Shown: positions 2,616 through 64,000 of the stretch, in pieces
Layout of the letters: every line of letters starts with the position of its first letter
How positions within the stretch are numbered: position 1 is the stretch's first letter
Assembly: GCA_951799425.1 (NCBI GenBank)
Contig: OX637397.1
Coordinates: 8,113,001 to 8,177,000, forward strand
Origin: Ilex aquifolium
Taxonomy: Eukaryota > Streptophyta > Magnoliopsida > Aquifoliales > Aquifoliaceae
DNA: 64,000 nucleotides
Direction of reading: 5' to 3'
Program-made: the position numbers and the translations under genes
Notes under the pieces: generated by a model
Databases searched by the model: none
The model's input: only the letters and a program-made list of their open reading frames with translations
Told to the model about the DNA's origin: nothing

Positions 2616-2620
2616 GACTT
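2616..2620. repeat. Target-site duplication GACTT (left)
   Basis: GACTT directly precedes the TGTGACACCC terminus and is repeated exactly after the other terminus at 11709-11713. Five bases is the usual duplication for Ty3/gypsy integrase. Confidence 0.9.
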
Positions 2621-5600
2621 TGTGACACCCCAATTTCCGGGGGTCCTTTATTAACCGTTGACCATCCGTCAACCCGCGGAAATACTCGTGATAGTCGTAT
2701 AACCCGACACCACGTCATTCACATGCTTTTAACCGAATTTACCATCCACAAGATCAATTATACCTCAAATTTTGTCCATTTATGTCATAGGAACCAAAGA
2801 AAACCAAGCCCAAAAGCATGGCTAAGCATTTTGAAAATTTCAAATTTTTGGAAAACCTTCCGGAAGGTTTTGACTCAACCTTCCGGAAGGTTTGCTCACT
2901 GGAAAAGTTCTTCCGGAAGGTTTTTATTAACCTTCCGGAAGGTTTTGCCTTCTGGAAATAGATTGAAAAAAATGAAACGTGTCGGCCTTCCGGAAGGTGT
3001 ACTCAAACCTTCCGGAAGGTTTTGCTCACTGGAAAGGTTCTTCCGGAAGGTTTTTCTTCACCTTCCGGAAGGTTTTGCCTTCTGAAAAATAGATTGAAAA
3101 TGAGACGTGTCGACCCTCCGGAAGGTGTACTCAACCTTCCGGAAGGTTTTACCTTCTGGACCACAATTCTGCTTTAACCTTCCGGAAGGTTTTAGTGACC
3201 TTCCGGAAGGTTTTGCCCAGAATTTCTTCACTCCTTAGTTTTTCAATCCCAATTCAACCAAAACCATTCCATTTCCATCCCAAACATGGATAACTATATT
3301 TTCCACATTATACATGTTCTATACAAGTTCCATAGCATAAAATTCCACATTTTTACACATCAAAAGTGAAATTTTATAAAAGTTTTACAAAACTCAACCC
3401 AAGGCCACAAGCCGGCCCCCTTCATGCTTGATGCTCTCCAAGTGAGCCATCCGCCGGTGCAAAACTCACACCTGAAAATGTTGTCCCACGAAGGGTGAGC
3501 CACGCTCAATAGGATATCCTCCTACAGAGATTACTCCCCAACCTAAGTGCATATGAAATGCGCACACGCAACAAATCAACAAGCATCAACCAATCTAACA
3601 AGAATATATACCTCCATGTTAGAAAGCTACCATGCTATGCTATGTCATGCCATGATTTGAGATGGAACTCACTCATGCACCTTGTCCCGAGTCTTCCCCG
3701 ACTCACACCACACAATGCAAAAGCCAATGTGTATGAACCCGTCTATTGACGGAAAAACCCTCACAATGATCGTTTGAATTAAAAGTTATGTCTTTATAAA
3801 AACCCAATCATTGTTGGAGGCTACCCATTGAATGGGTGTTTTTTATACAACAAAATCTTGTGTCTTCCTGGGCAACGGATTTTGGAATCGCACCGCCGGC
3901 TCCGTGGGCCTATCTACACTTTTTGGACTTGCACCGTCGGAGTGTATGAACCAGTGGTTCCGGGTTTTTCACCCGAGGGAGTGTCTAGCCCTACTTGCTT
4001 TACCCGACACAAGTTTTCCTTATGCAATGCAACCGTGCAACTCAGTCGGATCTTCGATCCCGACTTTCCCGAGTTCACATACCAACCACCAAGATTTGGT
4101 GTTTGATCCACAACACATGCACACACCCACACTCATGCCTATGACCCATGAATGCGATGTCAACTCACCCACACACACTCATGTCTTATAACCATGAATG
4201 TGATGTACCCATGAGAATGCAATGTAATATACCCTTGCATCTTCTCCACATGTTCAATATGTATGAATGCCATATGAACAACTCAACAATAAATCCACAT
4301 ATCCATGGTACTTCATATCATAAGCATATGCATATAAATACCATAATTCAACACTTTGTCAACACCTCGTAAGCATGTGTATATCAACATTTTCCTTAAT
4401 CACAATATCCAAGCATGTTATACATATTTCATGCAAAACATACTTCACATTTTCATCAAAGCATTTACTCAACACCTTCAAAGCATCCAAGATCATGTAA
4501 TCACATAATATACTCAAATTCATCATAAAGCTCCAGAAATCATATTAATTGATTTCTACACAATTATACCAAGATATAATTCATTCTACCCATAACATAA
4601 CCTCATATGTCATAATTTCTCAAGAAATTATCAACAACCATTCCTAAATGTCCTTTTCATTTAGGAATTCACTTTACCCAATTTCCCATATCAATTTTCT
4701 ACACTTCAAGTTTCTTTACGAAATTTACCCATCAAGTAAATTTATTTACCCATTTCATACCAACCTTGCTTAGCACATTTGGTACTCATTTCCCACACAT
4801 GAAATGCATTAGTGGTACATTAAACTAGAGAATGTGATTTAAATCTTGCTACCCATTCTCAATACCCATTTCACCCAAATAACCACAATAGGCAAGTGAT
4901 ACATATATATATACACCTACCCATTCCATATAACCTTCCTAGGTTGGAAATAAACCTAAGTAGGAAGAAAACCCTACCTCTTGTAGCGTGTAGAATCGCC
5001 GTGGGAAGCTCCTAGAACTCAAAGCAAGCTTGAATCCTTCACTTCCAAATTTTCGGCCCTCCAACGTTCGGTGAAAACCGTCGTTTTTGGCACCCACGCG
5101 TAGCCCTCGACGCGTAGAGCAACTCTTGTTCTTGGCCCGAGTCGATTTGAGCGCTAGAACGGAGTAGATCGTAGAGAGAAGGTGGAGTTTTCTCTCATTT
5201 TCCCTCTCTTCTTTTCTCTCGGCTGAAACCGGCTGAATGGTGAAGGAGAAGTCTGATTTTTCAGACTTTAGGCTCCTATTTATATTTTTAGAATACTTGG
5301 CCCACAATTGGCCACACGTCCCTTTTAATTCCGGGTCCGTTTTAATCCCGAAACGATTAAATTTCGCTCCGGTTCGAGTTCAAAATATTTTTATTTTAAC
5401 TTGCCTCTAATATTTCCCCAAACTTTAAAATTTTATAAAAATTTCGTGTACGGGGTCACCCGAGGCCCGTTCGTCTCGTAAAACGCGAAAAATCCGACTA
5501 TCTCGGAATTCAACGAAATTTGACGTGGTAACTAGATTTCGCGAGACGAATCCAACGGTGAAATCCGTTTCGTCATTCGAGATCTAGAAAAATTCAGTTT

Positions 5601-5673
5601 TTCAACTAGTCCCGAAGTGGCAATTCATCTATTGCCCTTGTTCGTCAAAGTTTAAATTTTCCGGGGTTTCACA
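2621..5673 (-). repeat. 3' LTR of the gypsy element
   Basis: On the plus strand it begins TGTGACACCCCAATTTCC and ends CCGGGGTTTCACA. It matches 8626-11708 almost base for base. The differences I see are A/G at 2735, C/A near 5415 and T/C near 5628, plus the absence of one 30-bp unit in the palindrome array. The short open frames inside it recur identically in the other LTR and are not genes. Confidence 0.95.
2862..3215. repeat. Array of TTCCGGAA-centred palindromes (3' LTR copy)
   Basis: There are twelve copies of a palindrome whose best form is AAACCTTCCGGAAGGTTT, separated by roughly 10-45 bp of non-identical spacer. Some copies have one arm altered (for example TTCTTCCGGAAGG or CCCTCCGGAAGG), but the central TCCGGA is always kept. 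A larger block containing GCTCACTGGAAA and CCTTCTG is also repeated. The array lies near the 3' end of the LTR in the transcription sense. Confidence 0.9.
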
Positions 5674-5686
5674 TTCTTTCCCCCTT
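5674..5686 (-). other. Polypurine tract
   Basis: On the minus strand AAGGGGGAAAGAA directly abuts the TGTGAAACC start of the 3' LTR. This is the expected position and composition of the plus-strand DNA primer of an LTR retrotransposon. Confidence 0.85.
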
Positions 5687-5730
5687 AAAAGAATTTCGTC
5701 CCCGAAATTCACACCCTCATGCCCATTCGA

Positions 5731-6426
5731 CTATATGCATAAGTTACAACAATACTGTCTAAATTGTCCCACATGTATACGTCTCACTCCCAGACTAGGT
5801 TCTAGACGCCACCAAGTCCGTCCGTAAAGGCACCACATATCCTGTGCATACAACCTGCAGAATTCCTCCTGTGTGAGGGTCATCCGCCCTGTCAAAAGGC
5901 GTGCCGACTTAGTAAGCCGGTCCACTCTCACTCACACCGCATCATGTCCCCGCGATGTCCGTGGCAAGTGGGTCACAAAACCCATTGTGACATGCTCCCA
6001 CTTCCACTCAGCCACCTCCAAGGGCTAGAGCAGCTCTGTTAGTTTCTAGTGCCCAGCCTTCACCTGTCTACTGACAAGGTTTTCAACGTGTCTCTTTATT
6101 CTACTCCAATAACACTGGTGATGAAGATTATGGTACATCTTCGTGCCACCTAGACGTACCCGGTCCCTGATAGATAACAAATCTGGGTCCTGTTCGTGGG
6201 GATCGATCACTCTGCTCAGTAGGGAAGGCATAGTCACCAAGCTCCCTAAAATACCCTGAGTCTGACCCCGATAATACAGCCCGTACTGTCCCACACTCTC
6301 AAGCATCCGCCACTCTCGGTGAGCCACACTAGCCACAAGTTCCTGTAACTTCCGGCTAAGTGCATTTGTTACCACATTTGCCTTACCAGGATGATAATGC
6401 AAAGTGAAGTCGTAACCCTCCAATTA
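5731..6426 (-). pseudogene. Decayed RNase H / integrase region of the gypsy element
   Basis: The minus frame at 6423-6046 starts with the RNase H end motif YDFTLHYHPGKANVV and NALSRK. It then enters the integrase zinc-binding region (YWSRIKRHVENLVSRQ...), which has lost the residues that should hold its Cys pair. A stop codon at 6426-6424 interrupts RNase H just upstream of LEGYDF. The integrase core start (VDRLTKSARLLTGRMT) appears separately at 5931-5731 and soon runs into unrelated residues, so most of the catalytic core is deleted. The product cannot be functional as read. Confidence 0.8.
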
Positions 6427-7488
6427 TTTCATCCACCTGCGTTGCCTCATGTTAAGGTCCCGTTGTGTAGAGATATATCTCAGACTTTTGTGGTCTGATA
6501 AAGCCTCAAACTTCTCACCATATACGTAGTGGCGCCAAGCTTTCAAGGCAAGATAATGGCCGCCAACTCCATGTCACGTATAAGATAATTTTGCTTGTGG
6601 TTCTTTAGTTGTCCAGAACCATAAGCCACCGTTCTCGCGAACTACATTAATACCGATCCATGTCCGTCCTTAGAAGCATCACAGTTCACTGTGTACTTCT
6701 GTCCCCTCTCCGGAACTACTAGAATAAGAGGTGAAGTAAGCTTCCTCCATAATTTTGGTCATTAGCACCAAAGCGCCCCAAAGTGAAGTATTTGGTCTAA
6801 CGAAGTCCTTGTTTAATAATTCTTGTATTCGGACCTAGAGTTTTCACAACTCTACTGGTTCCATTCTATGCAGAGTCATAGAAATGGGCGATGTACCGGG
6901 ATGCAACTCAATGGTAATTTCTACATTCCTATGTGTAGGTAATCCCGGTAGTTCATCCGAAAAATATCCCCATACTCACAGACAACCCGAGGTAGACCCA
7001 ACTCTTGTCTCACCTCGTCCTCCAAGATAAGGCTCGCAAGCCAACCCATCTACCGTCCGTGCTAACGGAAACCATACACGATTTGGGATAAAGAGTCGTG
7101 CTTTTCCCCCTGGAATTTGAAACAAACACCATTCGGTGTGTAAGCAGTGATCCTCTTACGATCACAATCAACGACGACGCGGTGTGCCGTCAATCAACCC
7201 ATTCTCAGGATGACATCAACTCGACATGTCCACGACCCTAAGGTCCATAGTGAGTAGAGTCCCCGAGATCTCTAACTCACAACCGTCATATCTGATCAAT
7301 GCAGGCCCTAGTCCCTAAGGTGGAATTCACCCCTGAGGACTCTTCTAGGGTTATAATATTTAAAACTGTACCATGCACAAAATATGAAAAATAACGGTAT
7401 TTGACACGATCAAGTCAAATAACACGTGTCCCCATAAATAAGGAATAAGTGATGTACCGTGGGTCGCTGCCTGATCCCCCGACTCACT
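6427..7488 (-). pseudogene. Remnants of protease and the reverse transcriptase/RNase H junction
   Basis: Translated on the minus strand, about 6427-6540 reads like RNase H ([17 protein letters not shown]). About 7050-7290 resembles a gypsy protease (LRVVDMS..., then GVCFKF-like text) but changes frame and carries stops. I find no YMDD-type reverse transcriptase core, so most of RT appears deleted. This is decayed coding sequence between gag and RNase H. Confidence 0.6.
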
Positions 7489-8259
7489 CTATGGTGCAAC
7501 GTCAAAGACCGTCTCCTGGGTCTCCAATGTTGTCGCTTCAGAGTCTTGTTCCTGGCCTTGGCCCATACCTTGGCTCATCCGGTCTGATTGCGGAGTCTCC
7601 GCACGCGGCGTACTAGGGACTTGTACAACGCCCTGTAGTTGGGACTGATTTCTCTGGTCCATAGTGGAATAGGGAAGAACAACACGTGCCTGTGTGAGTC
7701 CCACCGACGACTGGGATTGAGAAGTCTCGGAACTCTGTGAGGTTTGCCTCAGGGGGCAATCCTTCCTCCTATGGCCCGGTTGTCGACAATAGAAACATGT
7801 CTTCTGGCCTCCTTGAAACGTTCCCTTGAATTTCTTCCCTCCTTGGGACAAAAGATTTTGGGCTTGATCCCCCTCCTGTGATCCCTGCCTCTGAGGACAA
7901 TCCCTCCTCTTATGCCCCACTTGGCGACAATGATAACATGGCCCCTGCCCCGCTTGGCTGGGAACCCTGAAGTGCCCACTACTTTGGGAGGTTTGCCCTT
8001 GGCCTTGGCCTTGATAGCCGCGGCCCTGCCCCGATGATTCTTGTGGGCTCGATGTCTTTTGCTTTTTCCATGGCCGTTGATGGCCCATGGAACTTAAACT
8101 CCTTTGGATGGCTTGAGCCCCTTGGCTCAAATTGGCGCTTGCCTGTGCTAGGTTAGCAGCCATCGTACTCATAGCCTCCATATAGGCTTGTTGGTCCAAA
8201 GTTGGTAGTGGTTGGTTGTTCCGTCCACCGCCTAGACGTCCCCTCCCTCTATATGCCAT
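7489..8259 (-). CDS. Truncated gag with two CCHC zinc knuckles
   Basis: Open frame of 256 codons starting at an ATG on 8259-8257. The N-terminus (MAYRGRGRLGGG) is Arg/Gly-rich. Residues 20-60 are Ala/Ser/Gln-rich. Two CX2CX4HX4C zinc knuckles lie at about 108-121 (CYHCRQVGHKRRDC) and 155-168 (CFYCRQPGHRRKDC) in a Gln/Ser/Gly-rich context. The usual gag capsid core between the N-terminus and the knuckles is missing, so this looks like an internal-deletion derivative that kept the RNA-binding part. It is the only long intact frame in the element and lies directly downstream of the primer site. In intact relatives Gag packages element RNA; whether this short form is made or active is unknown. 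Confidence 0.8.
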   Translation of the reverse strand: MAYRGRGRLGGGRNNQPLPTLDQQAYMEAMSTMAANLAQASANLSQGAQAIQRSLSSMGHQRPWKKQKTSSPQESSGQGRGYQGQGQGQTSQSSGHFRVPSQAGQGPCYHCRQVGHKRRDCPQRQGSQEGDQAQNLLSQGGKKFKGTFQGGQKTCFYCRQPGHRRKDCPLRQTSQSSETSQSQSSVGLTQARVVLPYSTMDQRNQSQLQGVVQVPSTPRAETPQSDRMSQGMGQGQEQDSEATTLETQETVFDVAP

Positions 8260-8609
8260 CTACACACATGTCAAATAGCAATGGAGTACTAACTTAATAT
8301 CCCAAGGTAGGGATCAAGTTCAAAACATTGAGAATTCTCTCATCGTGTCCCTAGTAGAGCGAGTGTCTCACACTAGTAGACATTTAACCCATGAACTATC
8401 CCGTTCATCCTTTTTCGAACCCCCAAGGTTATGTTTTCTAAACCTAGTGTTCCTCTTTTCCATAAACATTTTACCATGTATATAATTTAAACATAACACA
8501 TAATCATGTAGCACATAATCATGTAACAAATAAAACACATAACATGAATGTACATGGAATGCAATGGTGTAAACCCATTCCCCTCAAGCCCTAGGTAATC
8601 GTATACCTA

Positions 8610-8622
8610 GGCTCTGATACCA
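8610..8622 (-). other. Primer binding site for initiator-Met tRNA
   Basis: On the minus strand TGGTATCAGAGCC lies three bases after the 5' LTR. TGGTATCAGAGC is the standard plant tRNA-iMet primer site. Confidence 0.9.
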
Positions 8623-8859
8623 AGCTGTGACACCCCAATTTCCGGGGGTCCTTTATTAACCGTTGACCATCCGTCAACCCGCGGAAATACTCGTGATAGT
8701 CGTATAACCCGACACCACGTCATTCACATGCTTTTAACCGGATTTACCATCCACAAGATCAATTATACCTCAAATTTTGTCCATTTATGTCATAGGAACC
8801 AAAGAAAACCAAGCCCAAAAGCATGGCTAAGCATTTTGAAAATTTCAAATTTTTGGAAA

Positions 8860-9250
8860 ACCTTCCGGAAGGTTTTGACTCAACCTTCCGGAAGGTTTGC
8901 TCACTGGAAAAGTTCTTCCGGAAGGTTTGCTCACTGGAAAAGTTCTTCCGGAAGGTTTTTATTAACCTTCCGGAAGGTTTTGCCTTCTGGAAATAGATTG
9001 AAAAAAATGAAACGTGTCGGCCTTCCGGAAGGTGTACTCAAACCTTCCGGAAGGTTTTGCTCACTGGAAAGGTTCTTCCGGAAGGTTTTTCTTCACCTTC
9101 CGGAAGGTTTTGCCTTCTGAAAAATAGATTGAAAATGAGACGTGTCGACCCTCCGGAAGGTGTACTCAACCTTCCGGAAGGTTTTACCTTCTGGACCACA
9201 ATTCTGCTTTAACCTTCCGGAAGGTTTTAGTGACCTTCCGGAAGGTTTTG
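8860..9250. repeat. Array of TTCCGGAA-centred palindromes (5' LTR copy)
   Basis: Thirteen copies, one more than in the other LTR. The extra unit is a direct 30-bp duplication containing GCTCACTGGAAAAGTTCTTC and one TTCCGGAA palindrome at about 8898-8957. In the transcription sense the array lies in U5, 250-640 bp upstream of the primer binding site, so it would be in the 5' leader of the element RNA. Confidence 0.9.
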
Positions 9251-11310
9251 CCCAGAATTTCTTCACTCCTTAGTTTTTCAATCCCAATTCAACCAAAACC
9301 ATTCCATTTCCATCCCAAACATGGATAACTATATTTTCCACATTATACATGTTCTATACAAGTTCCATAGCATAAAATTCCACATTTTTACACATCAAAA
9401 GTGAAATTTTATAAAAGTTTTACAAAACTCAACCCAAGGCCACAAGCCGGCCCCCTTCATGCTTGATGCTCTCCAAGTGAGCCATCCGCCGGTGCAAAAC
9501 TCACACCTGAAAATGTTGTCCCACGAAGGGTGAGCCACGCTCAATAGGATATCCTCCTACAGAGATTACTCCCCAACCTAAGTGCATATGAAATGCGCAC
9601 ACGCAACAAATCAACAAGCATCAACCAATCTAACAAGAATATATACCTCCATGTTAGAAAGCTACCATGCTATGCTATGTCATGCCATGATTTGAGATGG
9701 AACTCACTCATGCACCTTGTCCCGAGTCTTCCCCGACTCACACCACACAATGCAAAAGCCAATGTGTATGAACCCGTCTATTGACGGAAAAACCCTCACA
9801 ATGATCGTTTGAATTAAAAGTTATGTCTTTATAAAAACCCAATCATTGTTGGAGGCTACCCATTGAATGGGTGTTTTTTATACAACAAAATCTTGTGTCT
9901 TCCTGGGCAACGGATTTTGGAATCGCACCGCCGGCTCCGTGGGCCTATCTACACTTTTTGGACTTGCACCGTCGGAGTGTATGAACCAGTGGTTCCGGGT
10001 TTTTCACCCGAGGGAGTGTCTAGCCCTACTTGCTTTACCCGACACAAGTTTTCCTTATGCAATGCAACCGTGCAACTCAGTCGGATCTTCGATCCCGACT
10101 TTCCCGAGTTCACATACCAACCACCAAGATTTGGTGTTTGATCCACAACACATGCACACACCCACACTCATGCCTATGACCCATGAATGCGATGTCAACT
10201 CACCCACACACACTCATGTCTTATAACCATGAATGTGATGTACCCATGAGAATGCAATGTAATATACCCTTGCATCTTCTCCACATGTTCAATATGTATG
10301 AATGCCATATGAACAACTCAACAATAAATCCACATATCCATGGTACTTCATATCATAAGCATATGCATATAAATACCATAATTCAACACTTTGTCAACAC
10401 CTCGTAAGCATGTGTATATCAACATTTTCCTTAATCACAATATCCAAGCATGTTATACATATTTCATGCAAAACATACTTCACATTTTCATCAAAGCATT
10501 TACTCAACACCTTCAAAGCATCCAAGATCATGTAATCACATAATATACTCAAATTCATCATAAAGCTCCAGAAATCATATTAATTGATTTCTACACAATT
10601 ATACCAAGATATAATTCATTCTACCCATAACATAACCTCATATGTCATAATTTCTCAAGAAATTATCAACAACCATTCCTAAATGTCCTTTTCATTTAGG
10701 AATTCACTTTACCCAATTTCCCATATCAATTTTCTACACTTCAAGTTTCTTTACGAAATTTACCCATCAAGTAAATTTATTTACCCATTTCATACCAACC
10801 TTGCTTAGCACATTTGGTACTCATTTCCCACACATGAAATGCATTAGTGGTACATTAAACTAGAGAATGTGATTTAAATCTTGCTACCCATTCTCAATAC
10901 CCATTTCACCCAAATAACCACAATAGGCAAGTGATACATATATATATACACCTACCCATTCCATATAACCTTCCTAGGTTGGAAATAAACCTAAGTAGGA
11001 AGAAAACCCTACCTCTTGTAGCGTGTAGAATCGCCGTGGGAAGCTCCTAGAACTCAAAGCAAGCTTGAATCCTTCACTTCCAAATTTTCGGCCCTCCAAC
11101 GTTCGGTGAAAACCGTCGTTTTTGGCACCCACGCGTAGCCCTCGACGCGTAGAGCAACTCTTGTTCTTGGCCCGAGTCGATTTGAGCGCTAGAACGGAGT
11201 AGATCGTAGAGAGAAGGTGGAGTTTTCTCTCATTTTCCCTCTCTTCTTTTCTCTCGGCTGAAACCGGCTGAATGGTGAAGGAGAAGTCTGATTTTTCAGA
11301 CTTTAGGCTC

Positions 11311-11320
11311 CTATTTATAT
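11311..11320 (-). promoter_or_regulatory. TATA box of the gypsy 5' LTR
   Basis: ATATAAATAG on the minus strand, about 390 bp from the LTR's 5' terminus and followed by a GC-richer stretch. The same sequence occurs at the matching place in the 3' LTR (near 5276-5285). The start site would be near 11285. Confidence 0.6.
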
Positions 11321-11708
11321 TTTTAGAATACTTGGCCCACAATTGGCCACACGTCCCTTTTAATTCCGGGTCCGTTTTAATCCCGAAACGATTAAATTTC
11401 GCTCCGGTTCGAGTTCAAAATATTTTTATTTTAACTTGCCTCTAATATTTCCCAAAACTTTAAAATTTTATAAAAATTTCGTGTACGGGGTCACCCGAGG
11501 CCCGTTCGTCTCGTAAAACGCGAAAAATCCGACTATCTCGGAATTCAACGAAATTTGACGTGGTAACTAGATTTCGCGAGACGAATCCAACGGTGAAATC
11601 CGTTTCGTCATTCGAGATCTAGAAAAATTCAGTTTTTCAACTAGTCCCGAAGTGGCAATTCACCTATTGCCCTTGTTCGTCAAAGTTTAAATTTTCCGGG
11701 GTTTCACA

Positions 11709-11713
11709 GACTT
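11709..11713. repeat. Target-site duplication GACTT (right)
   Basis: Exact repeat of 2616-2620 directly after the CACA terminus of the LTR. Confidence 0.9.
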
Positions 11714-32643: not shown

Positions 32644-35600
32644 ATGGCCACGCTTCGAACTCACCATGCGCACCTCCTTCAACTCGGCTCTCATTCACCT
32701 AGATTCCTCCACTTTCGAAACCCTAATTCCATTTCATTTTCCAAGAAACCGCATTTTCCCGGGAAAATCGGGGTTTTGAGTTCTGGTTTTGGAAACACAA
32801 GTCGAGGGAACTCGTTTAATTGTTGCTTTTTAAGCAATGGAAATACTGAAGTTGAGACTGTTACGGCTAAGGAAGAGAGAGAAAAGCCTTCGTTTGACAT
32901 CAATCTGGCTGTCATTCTTGCTGGTTTTGCATTTGAAGCCTACACAACCCCACCTGTAACGTATCTTCATCAGTATCAATATTTTTTTCCCTGATTCTGT
33001 CAAAAATTTTCACTATATGTTTGGTTGTTGAGAAGATGGAGGGAAAGTAAAGAAAAGAAAAGAAAATTTGAGGAACCTAGTAATATAAGATTTTGTTATT
33101 CAGTGCTGTAAATTGGAATCGGACCCAACCCTTAGGATTAGTTTACATAGTATGGCTATCATCGAACCCACAACTTCATTAGTTTAGCCAACAAGTTTAC
33201 TAGCGATGGCCTCAAAACTGACATGGTTTAAAATGTTCTTATATAGAGATGAATAATTGAGGGAGAAAGGTATATGTGTCATCTAATCTTTTTAAACTAC
33301 CAACTGGTGAATAAAGTCAACTGTGCTAATACAATTTTCTTTCTTATTTTTTTTTTAATTTGATAACAATTCTGATTTGTATTGAATACATTTGATTTCA
33401 TTGGGATCAGGAGAATTTAGGAAAGCAAGAGGTGGATGCAGCCAATTGTAAGACAGTGTTTCTATCAGAGTACGCAATTGTGTTCCATTTAGTGCAATTT
33501 TTAAAAGCCACTAGAAAAGGCATTTGGTTATGCATCACTAGCACGCCGTCTAATTGTAGGACACAATTAGTAATTGATTACTGTATATTTGAGTTTATAC
33601 TGTTTTGGTATATTAATTGTGATTGCTGCCACCAATATCTGAAACTCCTTGTCTAAATGAATTAAACCCGTGAAATTTGATACCAAATCTTCTTCCTGGA
33701 ATTGATATTATTGTACCAACTGCTGATGTTATGAAGATAAGGAGGTGCCATTGTAGGTCTCATTTCACTTGATTGAGTTGCTCTTGGTTCGTTCTTCTAG
33801 AGGGTACACTCTTTAGATTGTTAATCATAGCACTAGCACAGGGTGCTTGTTGCCATCCTGCCACACAACATGGATGTCAAAAGTGTGCAAGATAATAATT
33901 GTGTGCGCTGCCTTAATTATAAATGGAATTCAAAAAATTCAGCCATGCCAGATATTTGAAAGAGCAATGAAGAGGATGTTAAAGTGTTGTAGTGGATGAA
34001 CCTTCATCTGAAATTGAACTTATGAGCAGTCCCTTTTAAGTATTCAAAATTAAGTTTACTCTGTTGATATCTTTTCAAATAATTCAAAACTAAGATCTGA
34101 ATTGCATTGTCTTGGTTTAATTCATCGTTCTGGAAAAATGGAAATTTTATGCAATGGTGGATAAAACAACAATTTCCCACTCAAAAGAATATTCCACTTC
34201 CAAAGTATGGGAATTTTGGTTGACCTCTGATGTATTAAAAGTGAATAAAAGATAGCCATAATCAGTTTTTGTTGAAGAAAATGCAACTATTCTTCCATCC
34301 ATAAATTTGAAGAATTTAATACATCTCTAGAATAAGGATATTTATGAATATTTCCGTTCCAAAATTGTTTTGATTATATACTTGTTGCAATGGCATTGCT
34401 TTGCTAATCTTATAACCTAGTTTTTCTGACTGAAACTTGCTGGGAAACTCTAGAGCTCAGTTCATTTAATTGTTAGTATTAGGGACACAAATCACCTAGT
34501 AATCTGTCACAGAAAAAGTTTTATGATACAAGTAGGATTTAGAATATATAAACATTGTGACTTCTAAGTTCAAGGATGATTTCTTATTTGTAGGTCTTTT
34601 GTGCGTGAGATTTATGATGGTCAGTTGTTCATAAAGCTAAAGAGAGGTTTTAATTTTCCTGCCATGGATCCATGGGTAGGTATCTTTCCTCTCGTTTTCG
34701 TTTCTACATTTATAAGTAGTAGAACTTCATTTTAAGTTCCACCAGTAGTCTGCTTCCTTGTATTACCTAGATAACTTTACACCTTTTGTTCTTAAGGTTA
34801 TTATTAATTTACTGAGACTCAAAGCAGTCAATCTTTTTTAGTTCAATGCTTTTCTTTTTTATCCTTCAGCCTTCTTTACTTCCAGGGAACAAGTGATCCA
34901 TATGTGGTCATGCAATTGGATAGTCAGGTCTTCAAAAGCAAAGTTAAATGGGGGTAAGTTGCTGGTGTTCTCATAGAAGTCGCCAAAACTAGCAATTCTT
35001 TTGTAAAGGGAGTGAAAAAAATGTTTGTGGTCCACATCATATTATGATTGAGAACTTTAGTGCTGTCATGAGCTTGTTTCTAGTTTGAACCAGACCCCTG
35101 CACTAGGAGTTGCACAACTTGTTAAGACTTGTTCTTTATATTAATGACAGTCTACAGAAACCACAATTTAAGAAAATTCAAATTGAGAGAATCTAATACT
35201 AATGACCAAGTATCAAGTAAAAGGATGTTAAAGTTGGATTTTCTGTTTATTAAATGTTGCCTCTTGATCTCCGGCATAGGTATGAACTAAGTAGGAGCTA
35301 TTGGTTTAGGTTCTCATTTTAAATTTCTTCTTTTCAACTGGTTATCAATTCTAATCTTATCCAACAGCTCATTAGAGGATTTTCTGCAAGCTATAATTGT
35401 TGTGACTTGTTATATTTATATTGTTGAAGGAACACATAAAAAAATTGATCATTTCTCTTGGTTATCGCTATTCTTGGTTTAGTTTATGTGAGGACCCATA
35501 AATCAACCCTTCCTGAATTTTCCTCCATTTATTTTGGGAAAACATTATCTTCTATGCGAGCTGCTATTTTCTCTAAAATCAGCATGTTCTTTACTAAGGT

Positions 35601-47600: not shown

Positions 47601-50600
47601 TCATGAAAAAGACAAATGAGAAATAGTGATGAAATTGTAAACTTTACCTAAGAAAAGGAAGAAAATAGCAGTAATATTTTCTACAGTTTTCTATACATGA
47701 TCATTTAGATTTTGCTAGCCAACAGCTTCTTATGAGGTTAAAACATTCTTTTTTAGGAAAATATGGAGCTTCTGGGAGATGGATACCAAGGCGACTTTAT
47801 TGGAGAATACACACCTGATGTTCTTGTTGGTGAATTTGTATGTTTCTTGCCTTCATCCTCTCTTTAGTTTTGTTGATTTTTCATCTTTGTAAATGTCTAG
47901 CAATATATCCAATGTCTACGGATAAGAATATATTTTAGGTGTTGTTCTCTTTATGTAAGTATCTGATGGTAACCACAATCGTCAATATCATTGATACTTT
48001 GATGTCCCTATAAATCACTTTAAGTGGTTGAAACATGGAGATATAAACTTCGAACTAAAATATATAATGTCTGTCACATTGGTTGATTAAGCCAATACAA
48101 ATGGTGAGGATAGGCAGGTTAACATGAATAGATGCAATGATTTACTTTGTTAAAAGGTTTGTCCGTTAATCAGTGACAATTTTTACTCCTTTCTCCATTT
48201 TGTTTTCAACAATCCGCCACCCATTATCTCCCCCAACCCATTTTGCCACCTGCCACCTTCCACCCAATCAATCTTCTGACACCCACCACCCTTATACCCC
48301 TCGAGCCGTGCAATCCATCTTCCGCACCCCCCATCTTTATACCCTCACTCCATCACACACCCTGCAACCCTCCCACCACCCAGCATAGGCCGCACCGATA
48401 TATCACATCCCACAACAAATTCTTCTCATGAGAGACACAACTACCCACCTGTTGGCTTACCCACTATAACCACCGGTTCACAGTCACCACCACATCATCT
48501 CCATTCTCCCAATCACCACCCACTGAGTCATGAAAGAACATAAACACACATCACATGCTTACAACACCAAAATCACACACATAACCACCAAACACCACAT
48601 GTAGAGAGACCAAGGAGCTTGGAATTTATGCCATGGGGGCAAAACCACTGTGCTTCACAGCTGGCTGCCGTCCACCTCCATTACCATTCTTTGCCGCTGG
48701 TGGCACAAGCGGAGCTACCCAAGGGCTGTGCCACTCTCAATTTTTTTTACAAAAATTGTATGTATGTCTATATTTGCATATTCTAAGAATTATACAATTT
48801 TTTTTTTACTTGTGCCCATTCAATAACTTTCTTACTTCAATTATTTGTCTTTTTTATCGTATTATGGCCTCATATTTATGAATTTTTAATTTTATTTTCT
48901 TAATTTAAAAGGGAAAGTTCTTACAATTGAGCTTTAGTTGACTTTTATTTTTTTGCGCCAGCTCGTCTTCATTTTTATTTGACTATTGATTGTAGCATTT
49001 ATTATGTGTCAATCAAGTTCCAAAATTTTTATTATGTTTAGTTCTTAAATTTTAGTTTAGTGACTTTACTATTCTAATATCGATAATGTCTGGAAAATAG
49101 TTTATCGAATAAATTTCATGGATGGTCAGTGGATTACTAATAACTTTTTAATCACAAAATTATAATTAGTCTCACTTTTTTATAATGGTGATAATTAGTC
49201 ATTTGTTTATGCATAAACAATATATATTATTTTTTGGCCTTTTTATGTTGAACGAACTTCATGTATCAAATATTATATGATAAATGTAACTGTATTATTT
49301 TATTGAGATTGGTTAGGAGGAAAAAAATTAGAATATATAATTAAAGTGATCACCCTAGATAAAATTCTTGGTTGGTGGGTTTGTGATTGTTGATTCTCCA
49401 TCACCATTGATTTGAGATTTTATTCCTAGTTTGAAATCAATTTTAGTTTTGGTTGTCAATTATCTGATCAGTTGAAATATTTGGAAGTCTACCAATTCAT
49501 TGTTTGTTGTGTTTGTTTTTCGAGTTTAGTAGGAATTGAAATGAAATTGAGGTTGTGTGGTCGGGTGTGTATTGATTGTGTGCAAACTTGTGAATGACAA
49601 TGGCAGTTTTGGTTGTCGATTATCTGATCTGTTGAAATATTTGGAAGTCTACCAATTCATTGTTTGTTGTGTTTGTTTTTCGAGTTTAGTAGGAATTGAA
49701 ATGAAATTGAGGTTGTGTGGTCTGGTGTGTATTGATTGTGTGCAAACGTGTGAATGACAATGGCATTGGTGGAAACCGGCGCCCGGGGGGGGGAGGGAAG
49801 GAGGCTGGTGGTGGAGCTGGGGATGTCATGACTCTTTCTGTGTGAGTATCTAAAGAAATAGTGGGAAGAGAAGAAGATGACTGTTTGGACGTGGGTAGAA
49901 GTTCACTCCGTTGAAAAATAAGAGATGTTTGGGCATAAGAATAACTTAAATTATGTTCATCCAAGGGTAGTTTGGGTATATAGGAAAGAATATTGGATGA
50001 TTTAATCACTTTACGAGGTTGTCAATGTCATTACTAATGGTAGGTGCATATAGCATGTTTGTTACTTGTTCTGTCTGATTGATGCTATGATTTCAACAGA
50101 TTCCTCGGTTGAAACAAAAGTTTTGCTAAACAAAAAATTGAAGTTCTCAAGCAATTGACAATGATGTGTAGCATTGTTGCTTTGTACTTTATATTCTATT
50201 TAAATGTAGTAGTTCTAAGAGAGCTCCAAGAACTCAATCCTAATTTTCTGCCTTTTTCATTTTTTAATTCTTAAAACTGTTGTGTGGCTTCCCATTTCAT
50301 TTAAAGAAAAAATCAGTTTGAAAAACAGGATACTTGTCACTTCTTATCTCTAGGAAATTTTTCCGTTTTATTTCTAAGTAACTTCTCACTTGCTCGGTAA
50401 CTTCCAATTTCTTTGTCACTTATCTCTCATCCTTTCTCTCTCTTCCCAAATATGTTTTATCCATCTCAAAAGCTCACGAACTGGTGTTTGCTCTCTCTCT
50501 CTCTCTCTGGGTCTAGCTCTATCTCTTCCTGATATCATGTTTTCCGGCGTTGACCTATTTTTATTATTGGAATTAGAATCCAGCAAGGAAAATGTTTGTT

Positions 50601-51973: not shown

Positions 51974-52016
<43 letters not shown>
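51974..52016. repeat. 43-base poly-G tract just after the lipase stop codon
   Basis: An unbroken run of 43 G starting 8 bases after the TGA at 51964-51966, within the presumed 3' UTR. Perfect homopolymers of this length are uncommon in plant DNA. Length could be over- or under-called in the assembly. Confidence 0.9.
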
Positions 52017-62327: not shown

Positions 62328-63487
62328 TGCCCTGTGTCCAATAGAACTTGGAGAGGAGGGCATTCGGTTGAATTTGAATTTTCGGCTAACCGGCATAACT
62401 GGAAAAACTTCGGGAGGCCAAAACCTGTGCTTTTAGGCATTTTTTGAGCTTTCAACAACATCAGTCACAGCCAAAGGATGTGAGTCTTGTAGAGCTCTCC
62501 AAGAGCTTCGATTTGATATATTATAAGCCTCATTTGGAGTTACGGAGCAAAATTTACGGTCAAAATAGCGAGCAGGGAGCCAGGCGCGTGATTTGGGCAA
62601 GCAGACAACCTCTGGGCGAGCTGGAAGTGTCCTGGGCGAGCTGGAAATGTCCTGGGCGAGCAGAATTTTTTTTTTTGAAAAAACATCGGGAGGCCAAAAC
62701 AGCTGTTTCTGAGTTTTTTTTGGACTTTTTACAGCATCAATCATAGCCAAAGGCTGTAAGTCTTATAGAGCTCGTCAAGAGTTTCGATTTGATATATTAT
62801 AAGTCCCGTTTGGAGCACCTTGGGCGAGCCTGAGCTGCCTTGGGCGAGCTTGGGGCTGTCTTGGCTCTCTTGGGCAAGCAGGAGGCTTTGGTTGAGCAGC
62901 TTGGGCGCTTTGTCCGAGCGATGGAGAAAATCGACGAGCAAAGGGATGACTTGGGCGCTAATTCACGCAGTCTAGGTGATTAGCCTGCTCGCATAAGGGG
63001 GGAGGTCCGGCATGGAAATGGGCGAGCAGCCCAACTGGCCTGGAGAGGAGATGGGCGAGCAGCCCAAAGGTGCGCAGCACTGGGCGGTTTGGGGGCTGCT
63101 GTCTGCGCGGGGCGCTGGGTGAGGCGCCCTTGGCACTGGGCAGGACGCGACCGGGCGCTGAGGACTTGCTGGGAGTCATTGGTCAAGCAACCCAGCTGTT
63201 GGGTGCCAATGGAGAGGCCCCGATTGTTGACATTCAATCTAATGTAGTCCCTCGGGGTTGTAGACGACCTGAGTTTCAAGATCTTGCCTAGAGATGACAA
63301 AAATAATATTATTCTAAACATTAAAATATTTAACATGATTACCTAGAGAGAGGTAGGCTGCTTGCGCGAGAGCAAAGACAAAGTTTGAGGTTACTCGTGA
63401 GAGAGTCGTGCCTCTTGAGACCGAGCTTTTGGCGACCCATGAGAGAGTCCTTAAGCTTGAGGTATAAGCGGCTTGTTTGAGAACAGT

Positions 63488-64000
63488 GCAGAGGCCAAGC
63501 TTTTGGCGACCCGCGAGATAGCCACTAAGCTGGATATATAGGCTGCCTGTTTGAGAACAGTGCAGAGGTAGGCCAAGCTTTTTTGGCGACCTGCGAGAGA
63601 GCCGCTAAGCTGGAGTTAGGCTGCCTGTTTGAAAAGAGTGCAGAGGCCAAACTTTTTTGGCGACCCGCAAGAAAGCTGTCAAGCTGGAGATAGATTGCCT
63701 GTTTGAGAACAGTGCAGAGGCCAAGCTTTTTTGGTGAACCGCGAGAGAGCCGCTAAGCTGGAGTTAGGCTGCCTGTTTGAGAAGAGTGCAGAGGCCAAAC
63801 TTTTTTGGCGACCCGCGAGAAAGCCGCCAAGCTGGAGATAGACTGCCTGTTTGAGAACAGTGCAGAGGCCAAGCTTTTTTGGTGAACCGCGAGAGAGCTG
63901 CTAAGCTGGAAATAGGCTGCCTGTTTGAGAACAGTGCAGAGGCCAAGCTTTTTTGGCGACCCGCAAGAGAGCCGCTAAGCTGGAGTTAGGCTGTCTGTTT
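63488..64000. repeat. 74-bp tandem repeat with 148-bp higher-order period
   Basis: Units begin GCAGAGGCCAA at 63488, 63562, 63640, 63714, 63788, 63862 and 63936: spacing 74, 78 (one 4-bp insertion, GAGGTAGGCC), then 74. From 63640 to 63936 alternate units share variants (AAACTTTTTTGGCGACCCGC...GGAGATAG against AAGCTTTTTTGGTGAACCGC...), giving a dimer period of 148 bp. The array continues past the window. A more diverged unit is visible at about 63400-63485. Confidence 0.95.

Follow-up and report, generated by a model that had tools for sequence, protein, structure and literature searches.

Why do both long terminal repeats (LTRs) of a young retrotransposon carry a dozen copies of the same short palindrome, and which constraint could keep these copies alike? 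The question was raised by a 64,000-nucleotide stretch of the Ilex aquifolium genome (the window), for which a preliminary description had counted 12-13 palindromes with a constant TCCGGA centre in each LTR. They were read there either as heat-shock elements (HSEs) or as pairing sites in RNA.

The element carrying the arrays

The element lies on the minus strand, hence the LTR at 8626-11708 is its 5' LTR. Its features are as follows.

2616..2620: target-site duplication GACTT, left copy
2621-11708, minus strand: LTR retrotransposon, Ty3-type, with GACTT at both flanks
2621..5673, minus strand: 3' LTR, 3053 bp, from self-alignment with 8626-11708
2854..3212: palindrome array of the 3' LTR, 12 units of (AACC)TTCCGGAA(GGTT)
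5674..8625, minus strand: internal region, 2.95 kb, without complete pol
6046..6423, minus strand: 125-aa frame, pol remnant, matching the stretch from RNase H to the integrase zinc finger of the gag-pol relative
7489..8259, minus strand: gag-like frame, 256 aa, with two CCHC zinc knuckles (PF00098, E 2.9e-10)
8610..8622, minus strand: primer binding site TGGTATCAGAGCC, adjoining the 5' LTR
8626..11708, minus strand: 5' LTR, 3083 bp
8859..9247: palindrome array of the 5' LTR, 13 units
8885..8914: 30-bp unit of the 5' LTR, missing from the 3' LTR
11709..11713: target-site duplication GACTT, right copy

The element has the LTR pair, the primer site, gag and pol sequences and a perfect 5-bp duplication, identical on the left and right, that are expected of a Ty3-type LTR retrotransposon, with most of pol missing. 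Its gag-like frame and pol remnant match a Ty3-type gag-pol relative (relative B), the former at 56% over 115 aa and the latter, which has no Pfam match of its own, at 49% over 176 columns with a gap. Relative B contains Retrotrans_gag, Ty3_capsid, RVP_2 (protease), RVT_1, RNase H and integrase domains, and among solved chains its integrase is best matched by Ty3-G. A Chromo match in relative B reached E 0.0009 and 19.6 bits against a cut-off of 25.1, and in the longer piece none was listed at E 0.001; the group may be chromovirus-like. The internal region retains the gag-like frame, with its zinc knuckles, but of pol no more than a remnant; the window element is therefore internally deleted, and presumably non-autonomous. 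In the self-alignment the two LTRs differ by three substitutions and one 30-bp gap; if the rate per site and year is assumed to lie between 4e-9 and 1.3e-8, the insertion dates back about 38,000 to 123,000 years.

Other repeats of the window are a tandem array with a 74-bp period and 7.7 copies that continues past the window's end (63427-64000), a 160-bp unit in two tandem copies with 97% matches (49445-49765), an imperfect inverted repeat to the left of the element (1128-1679; 75% over 574 columns) and a run of 43 G (51974-52016).

Number and turnover of the palindromes

The count given by the preliminary description was correct. The right (5') LTR contains 13 TCCGGA cores between 8864 and 9242, of which 12 are in TTCCGGAA and one is in CTCCGGAA (9151-9158), and the left (3') LTR contains 12 between 2859 and 3207, of which 11 and one are of these two kinds. 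The 13th palindrome of the right LTR corresponds to the single 30-bp unit at 8885-8914. The full 18-mer AAACCTTCCGGAAGGTTT is exact just twice in each LTR. The 23 copies of TTCCGGAA in the window compare with 0.89 expected and with a maximum of 4 in 100 shuffles. Genome-wide (800 Mb), the 12-mer CCTTCCGGAAGG occurs 17,078 times against 175 for its reversed control, and the 16-mer AACCTTCCGGAAGGTT 7,077 times against 0. Chance origin of the array is ruled out by the window shuffles together with these reversed controls. With Y allowed at the CpG, CCTTCCGGAAGG is found 18,418 times forward and 18,398 times in reverse (controls 382 and 370), which puts the number of copies with a single CpG transition at about 2,660.

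Family members were collected with the LTR without its array as query; from 5,831 first-look candidates 40 were scored, and the best-scoring 30 were fetched, including the window's own LTRs (L005, L006). All 30 loci contain TCCGGA, in 4 to 14 copies. Higher-order repeats with an offset of about 130 bp occur within the array. The replication-driven amplification suggested earlier agrees with a rapid change in array size, as seen both among the 30 loci and in the 30-bp unit by which the window's LTRs differ. Array copies would be gained and lost through slippage or unequal recombination. At one place in the genome (G000 C18:6351138-6363128; L025-L027) three family LTRs lie exactly 5,675 bp apart, like a tandem element with common LTRs.

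Quick turnover of this kind, the higher-order repeats and the mosaic LTRs described below would also be expected if the array were a functionless tandem repeat that slippage and LTR recombination had multiplied, its core being kept uniform by short gene-conversion tracts. Such tracts could indeed be an alternative cause of the uniform core. However, at non-CpG sites the spacers change about five times more than the palindromes of the same arrays, and the dyad is retained in arrays whose spacers belong to many unlike classes. We therefore consider absence of function unlikely.

Conservation of palindromes and spacers

The comparison of family copies that the preliminary description had proposed, and its claim that the dyad is kept while spacers change, both gave a positive outcome. 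In 28 W-family copies aligned with the window's 3' LTR, non-CpG changes amount to 23/2933 (0.8%) in palindromes, 210/4904 (4.3%) in spacers and 663/29812 (2.2%) in flanks. Between copies the palindrome rate is below the spacer rate in 12 of 14 comparisons, in which detection of units by palindrome similarity biases toward conserved cores. Examples are the window LTR against L038 (palindromes 3/144, spacers 20/208) and L039 against L050 (2/144 and 20/247); for these two, picked from the 14, a Fisher test gives P 5e-5, which, as with the other P values, is too small since copies have common ancestry. Rates are nearly equal for L041 against L054 (7/144 and 15/247) and for L050 against L054 (2/144 and 4/250), and palindromes changed as much as spacers or more for the window against L053 (5/144 and 5/211) and L038 against L053 (12/144 and 17/208).

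A low mutation rate at the palindromes was considered as a cause and rejected, as it receives no support from LTR pairs or from CpG loss. In 11 LTR pairs, with just 6, 2 and 57 changes, no protection of palindromes after insertion was found (palindromes 6/1401, spacers 2/2079, flanks 57/26191), and the palindrome rate is not significantly above that of the remaining sites (P 0.13). Because of these changes the palindromes do not appear to be shielded from mutation. CpG loss in the 28 copies is 22/294 in palindromes, 2/94 in spacers and 33/1026 in flanks, placing palindromes above flanks; in the distant copies L038, L044 and L053 it is 0/36 in palindromes against 32/108 in flanks.

The distribution of changes with distance from the dyad, over 30 copies, bears on the proposal that the TTCnnGAA cores recruit trimers of heat-shock factors (HSFs), which would place the element under heat control like ONSEN. 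Position 1, the CpG, changes at 3.6%. Positions 2, 3 and 4, which an HSE specifies, change at 0.6, 0 and 3.2%, and positions 5 and 6, which it leaves free, at 0.8 and 0.2%. The 3.2% at position 4 probably reflects the window's single CTCCGGAA unit. Positions 7-12 change at 2.7, 4.7, 0.9, 0.8, 8.4 and 6.2%. Each TTCCGGAA has the form nTTCnnGAAn, which is the heat-responsive element (HRE) as given for ONSEN in the available part of its description (PMC3907296), and this part of the heat-shock reading stands. HSEs of three units, 1 to 4 per array, are also present in 6 of 12 arrays checked, the window's arrays not being among the six. Nevertheless, a third perfect HSE subsite accompanies 0/11 and 0/12 of the TTCCGGAA copies in the window's two arrays, so that 0/23 belong to a series of three or more GAA/TTC units alternating at 5-bp intervals; the sole three-unit HSE of the window lies elsewhere than in the element, at 35510. 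Because the third subsite is missing and the HSE-free positions are as conserved as the specified ones, the case for HSFs is weak, and we regard heat-shock control as quite unlikely.

Spacing of the palindromes

The spacing had been described as irregular. Instead, distances between palindromes cluster at 21-24, 30-32, 43-44 and 51-56 bp, and 497 of 583 neighbouring spacings are no more than 1.5 bp off a multiple of 10.5. The resultant at 10.5 is 0.74 to 0.77 over 23 to 34 spacer classes, a value that 20,000 jittered sets never attained. Genome-wide, 4,220 exact palindrome pairs lie 14-44 bp apart, centre to centre, with counts inflated by copy number: 1,580 at 30-33 bp, 12 at 34-40 bp, 199 at 24-29 bp (45 of the 50 listed places being at 24) and, by subtraction, 2,429 at 14-23 or 41-44 bp. 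Most of the spacing can be traced to units of about 22 or about 31 bp, because many of the longer distances add up such lengths across a decayed unit. Independent helical phasing of long spacers in which no decayed palindrome is visible was not established (P 0.05 to 0.34). The quantisation of the spacing is clear; a relation to the DNA helix is no more than suggested by it.

Position of the array in the LTR

Three further features define the position of the array.

8652..8657, minus strand: AATAAA, starting 32 bp from the LTR 3' end
8761..8767, minus strand: TATA-like site 2 (GGTATAATTG), 93 bp past the last palindrome in element orientation
11311..11319, minus strand: TATA-like site 1 (TATAAATAG), at LTR position 390, about 2 kb upstream of the array

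All three are conserved in LTR types W, B, C and D, in which TATAAATAG is at LTR position 390-394, the last palindrome is 92-95 bp from GGTATAATTG and AATAAA starts 32-33 bp from the LTR end. Site 1 is as conserved as site 2 and nearer to a standard TATA box. In L058, a diverged relative, TATAAATAG is found near the place of site 2, and in neither the E nor the F LTRs was a TATA-like site detected over the 450 bp that follow the array. The preliminary description had placed the array downstream of the TATA box, in U5 and just before the primer site. The array is in fact about 233 to 622 bp from the LTR 3' end and does not adjoin the primer site. A location downstream of a TATA box holds for site 1 but not for site 2, which leaves U5 unproven. 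If site 1 is the promoter, the array is transcribed; if site 2 is used, as we consider plausible, the array would be in U3 and outside the 5' leader. L052 has, at about 2505-2670, one exact and one decayed palindrome that belong to no array and precede TATAAATAG by about 140 bp.

A transcribed array could act as RNA: its palindromes might fold into hairpins or make kissing contacts that promote dimerisation or packaging, or might give rise to small RNAs. The folding energy of the array RNA is -182 kcal/mol, compared with a mean of -111 for shuffled sequences (z -12), and small RNAs concentrate at the palindrome clusters of maize Sireviruses, according to the available part of PMC10760457. Stable folding is, however, expected of any set of palindromes. 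Among 51 unit classes, some of them decayed or chance matches, 21 two-sided changes were found; the 8 complementary ones fall at positions 7 and 8, beyond the 12-bp palindrome. No compensatory double change was found inside the 12-bp palindrome by a finder that tolerates up to 3 mismatches and misses heavily changed units. The quantised spacing is more easily explained at the DNA level, and use of site 2 would exclude the array from the leader. The RNA reading is thus weak, and we judge it very unlikely to account for the array.

Arrays in other elements

Twenty loci on C1 were picked for an exact 16-mer each. In seven of them (L040, L047, L048, L050, L051, L052, L054) no match to the window's LTR outside the array was found at E 1e-10, so arrays of this kind occur in LTRs with unrelated flanks. 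The primer site is TGGCGCCGTTGCCGGGGA, presumably of Asp type, in elements of types E (L047) and F (L051), as against TGGTATCAGAGCC in the window element; both types may be Athila-like. A frame of L050 without a Pfam match resembles the integrase of B (37.5% over 72 aa), and PF20167 was found in the same locus. This match and PF20167 are thin evidence that E and F are Ty3-type elements.

Arrays are also present in internal regions. L050 has a second, internal array (5015-5323), separated by about 290 bp that include a TC-rich stretch from the first ATG of the PF20167 frame, and L046, whose arrays sit in an E-type element, has one at 4866-5189. A further type of array, in L055 and L057, is separated by roughly 50 bp from TATAAATA, which lies on the opposite strand.

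The LTRs themselves are mosaic. F1 and F2 are 94-100% alike within positions 201-1000 but 52-88% outside this stretch; for B and C the figures are 94-100% at positions 1701-2600, 50-74% at 401-1600 and 79-95% over the first 400. An array block of 476 columns is common to B and F2 (93%), and one of 501 columns to C and F1 (88%). Both blocks contain the array together with about 70 bp that precede it, and the sequence beyond is unlike. At 58-194 kb of G000 C1 (L001-L004, L035-L037, L039), LTRs of types B and C follow one another at distances of 5.8 to 7.8 kb; some pairs are identical across the compared stretch, as in recent insertions or a segmental duplication.

A candidate site array for a host factor

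From the sequence comparisons above, we suggest that the array is probably a selected cis-acting DNA element, made of candidate sites for a dimeric host DNA-binding protein that would act on the LTR promoter. The dyad of about 14 bp (ACCTTCCGGAAGGT), present in many copies, would form the putative binding sites of such a protein, and neighbouring sites would be about two or three helical turns apart. Blocks with whole arrays have probably been exchanged between the LTRs of different elements. Such a DNA-level reading best explains why the footprint is symmetrical, how the sites are spaced and why blocks are shared. LBD/LOB factors are conceivable readers of TCCGGA; no title among the literature matches listed states so. 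Among the matches listed, none reports the TTCCGGAA / CCTTCCGGAAGG dyad for Ty3-type LTRs, by which absence from print is not proven, and judged by title no match for CCTTCCGGAAGG concerns transposons.

In an extension that we put forward tentatively, the more so as the second group is assigned to Ty3 on thin evidence, the array could be a mobile enhancer. A dyad array of ~500 bp, read by one host factor, may have been swapped as a block and in the same orientation between LTRs of two long-separated Ty3-type groups in one genome. Several families would then depend on one regulatory input, in a design convergent with that of Sireviruses, including the second array before an internal open frame. 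Such arrays in Ty3-type elements, with thousands of copies, a ~14-bp footprint and common blocks, would make the host factor directly searchable. They would also show regulatory input moving among retrotransposons independently of the coding parts.

Comparison with known systems

Palindrome arrays in LTRs are known from the Ty1/copia Sireviruses, where the available parts of the sources tie them to promoter regions and small RNAs. In the available part of PMC2829016, the palindromic repeated motifs (RM) are Sirevirus-specific among the elements compared, 12 of 13 motifs have the signature CGG-CCG, and several Sireviruses have further RM copies in the linker before the ENV-like gene. As far as that account goes, the likeness consists in at least 8 dyad-symmetric copies clustered within some hundreds of bp of the LTR, here 12 and 13 in less than 400 bp, and in the linker copies, to which the internal arrays of L046 and L050 can be compared. 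The differences are that the window group is Ty3-type and not Ty1/copia, that the core is TTCCGGAA and not CGG-CCG, and that the array is near the 3' end of a 3-kb LTR, in blocks common to unlike LTRs. Sirevirus motifs are described there as upstream of the TATA box; the array here is 92-95 bp upstream of site 2 and ~2 kb downstream of site 1. On this description, the window array resembles the Sirevirus motifs in design but is not a member of that group.

The ONSEN element of Arabidopsis, also Ty1/copia, shares the nTTCnnGAAn core in its LTR. In the available part of PMC3907296 its HRE is shown to bind HSFA2 and its LTR is described as lacking CG or CHG sites; the window's units, in contrast, have a central CpG and lack the third subsite. 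A further parallel is found in maize, where the available part of PMC10760457 describes one palindrome common to Copia elements and Helitrons. There, the same palindrome spans different kinds of transposon in one genome; in the present case, array blocks are common to different LTR elements.
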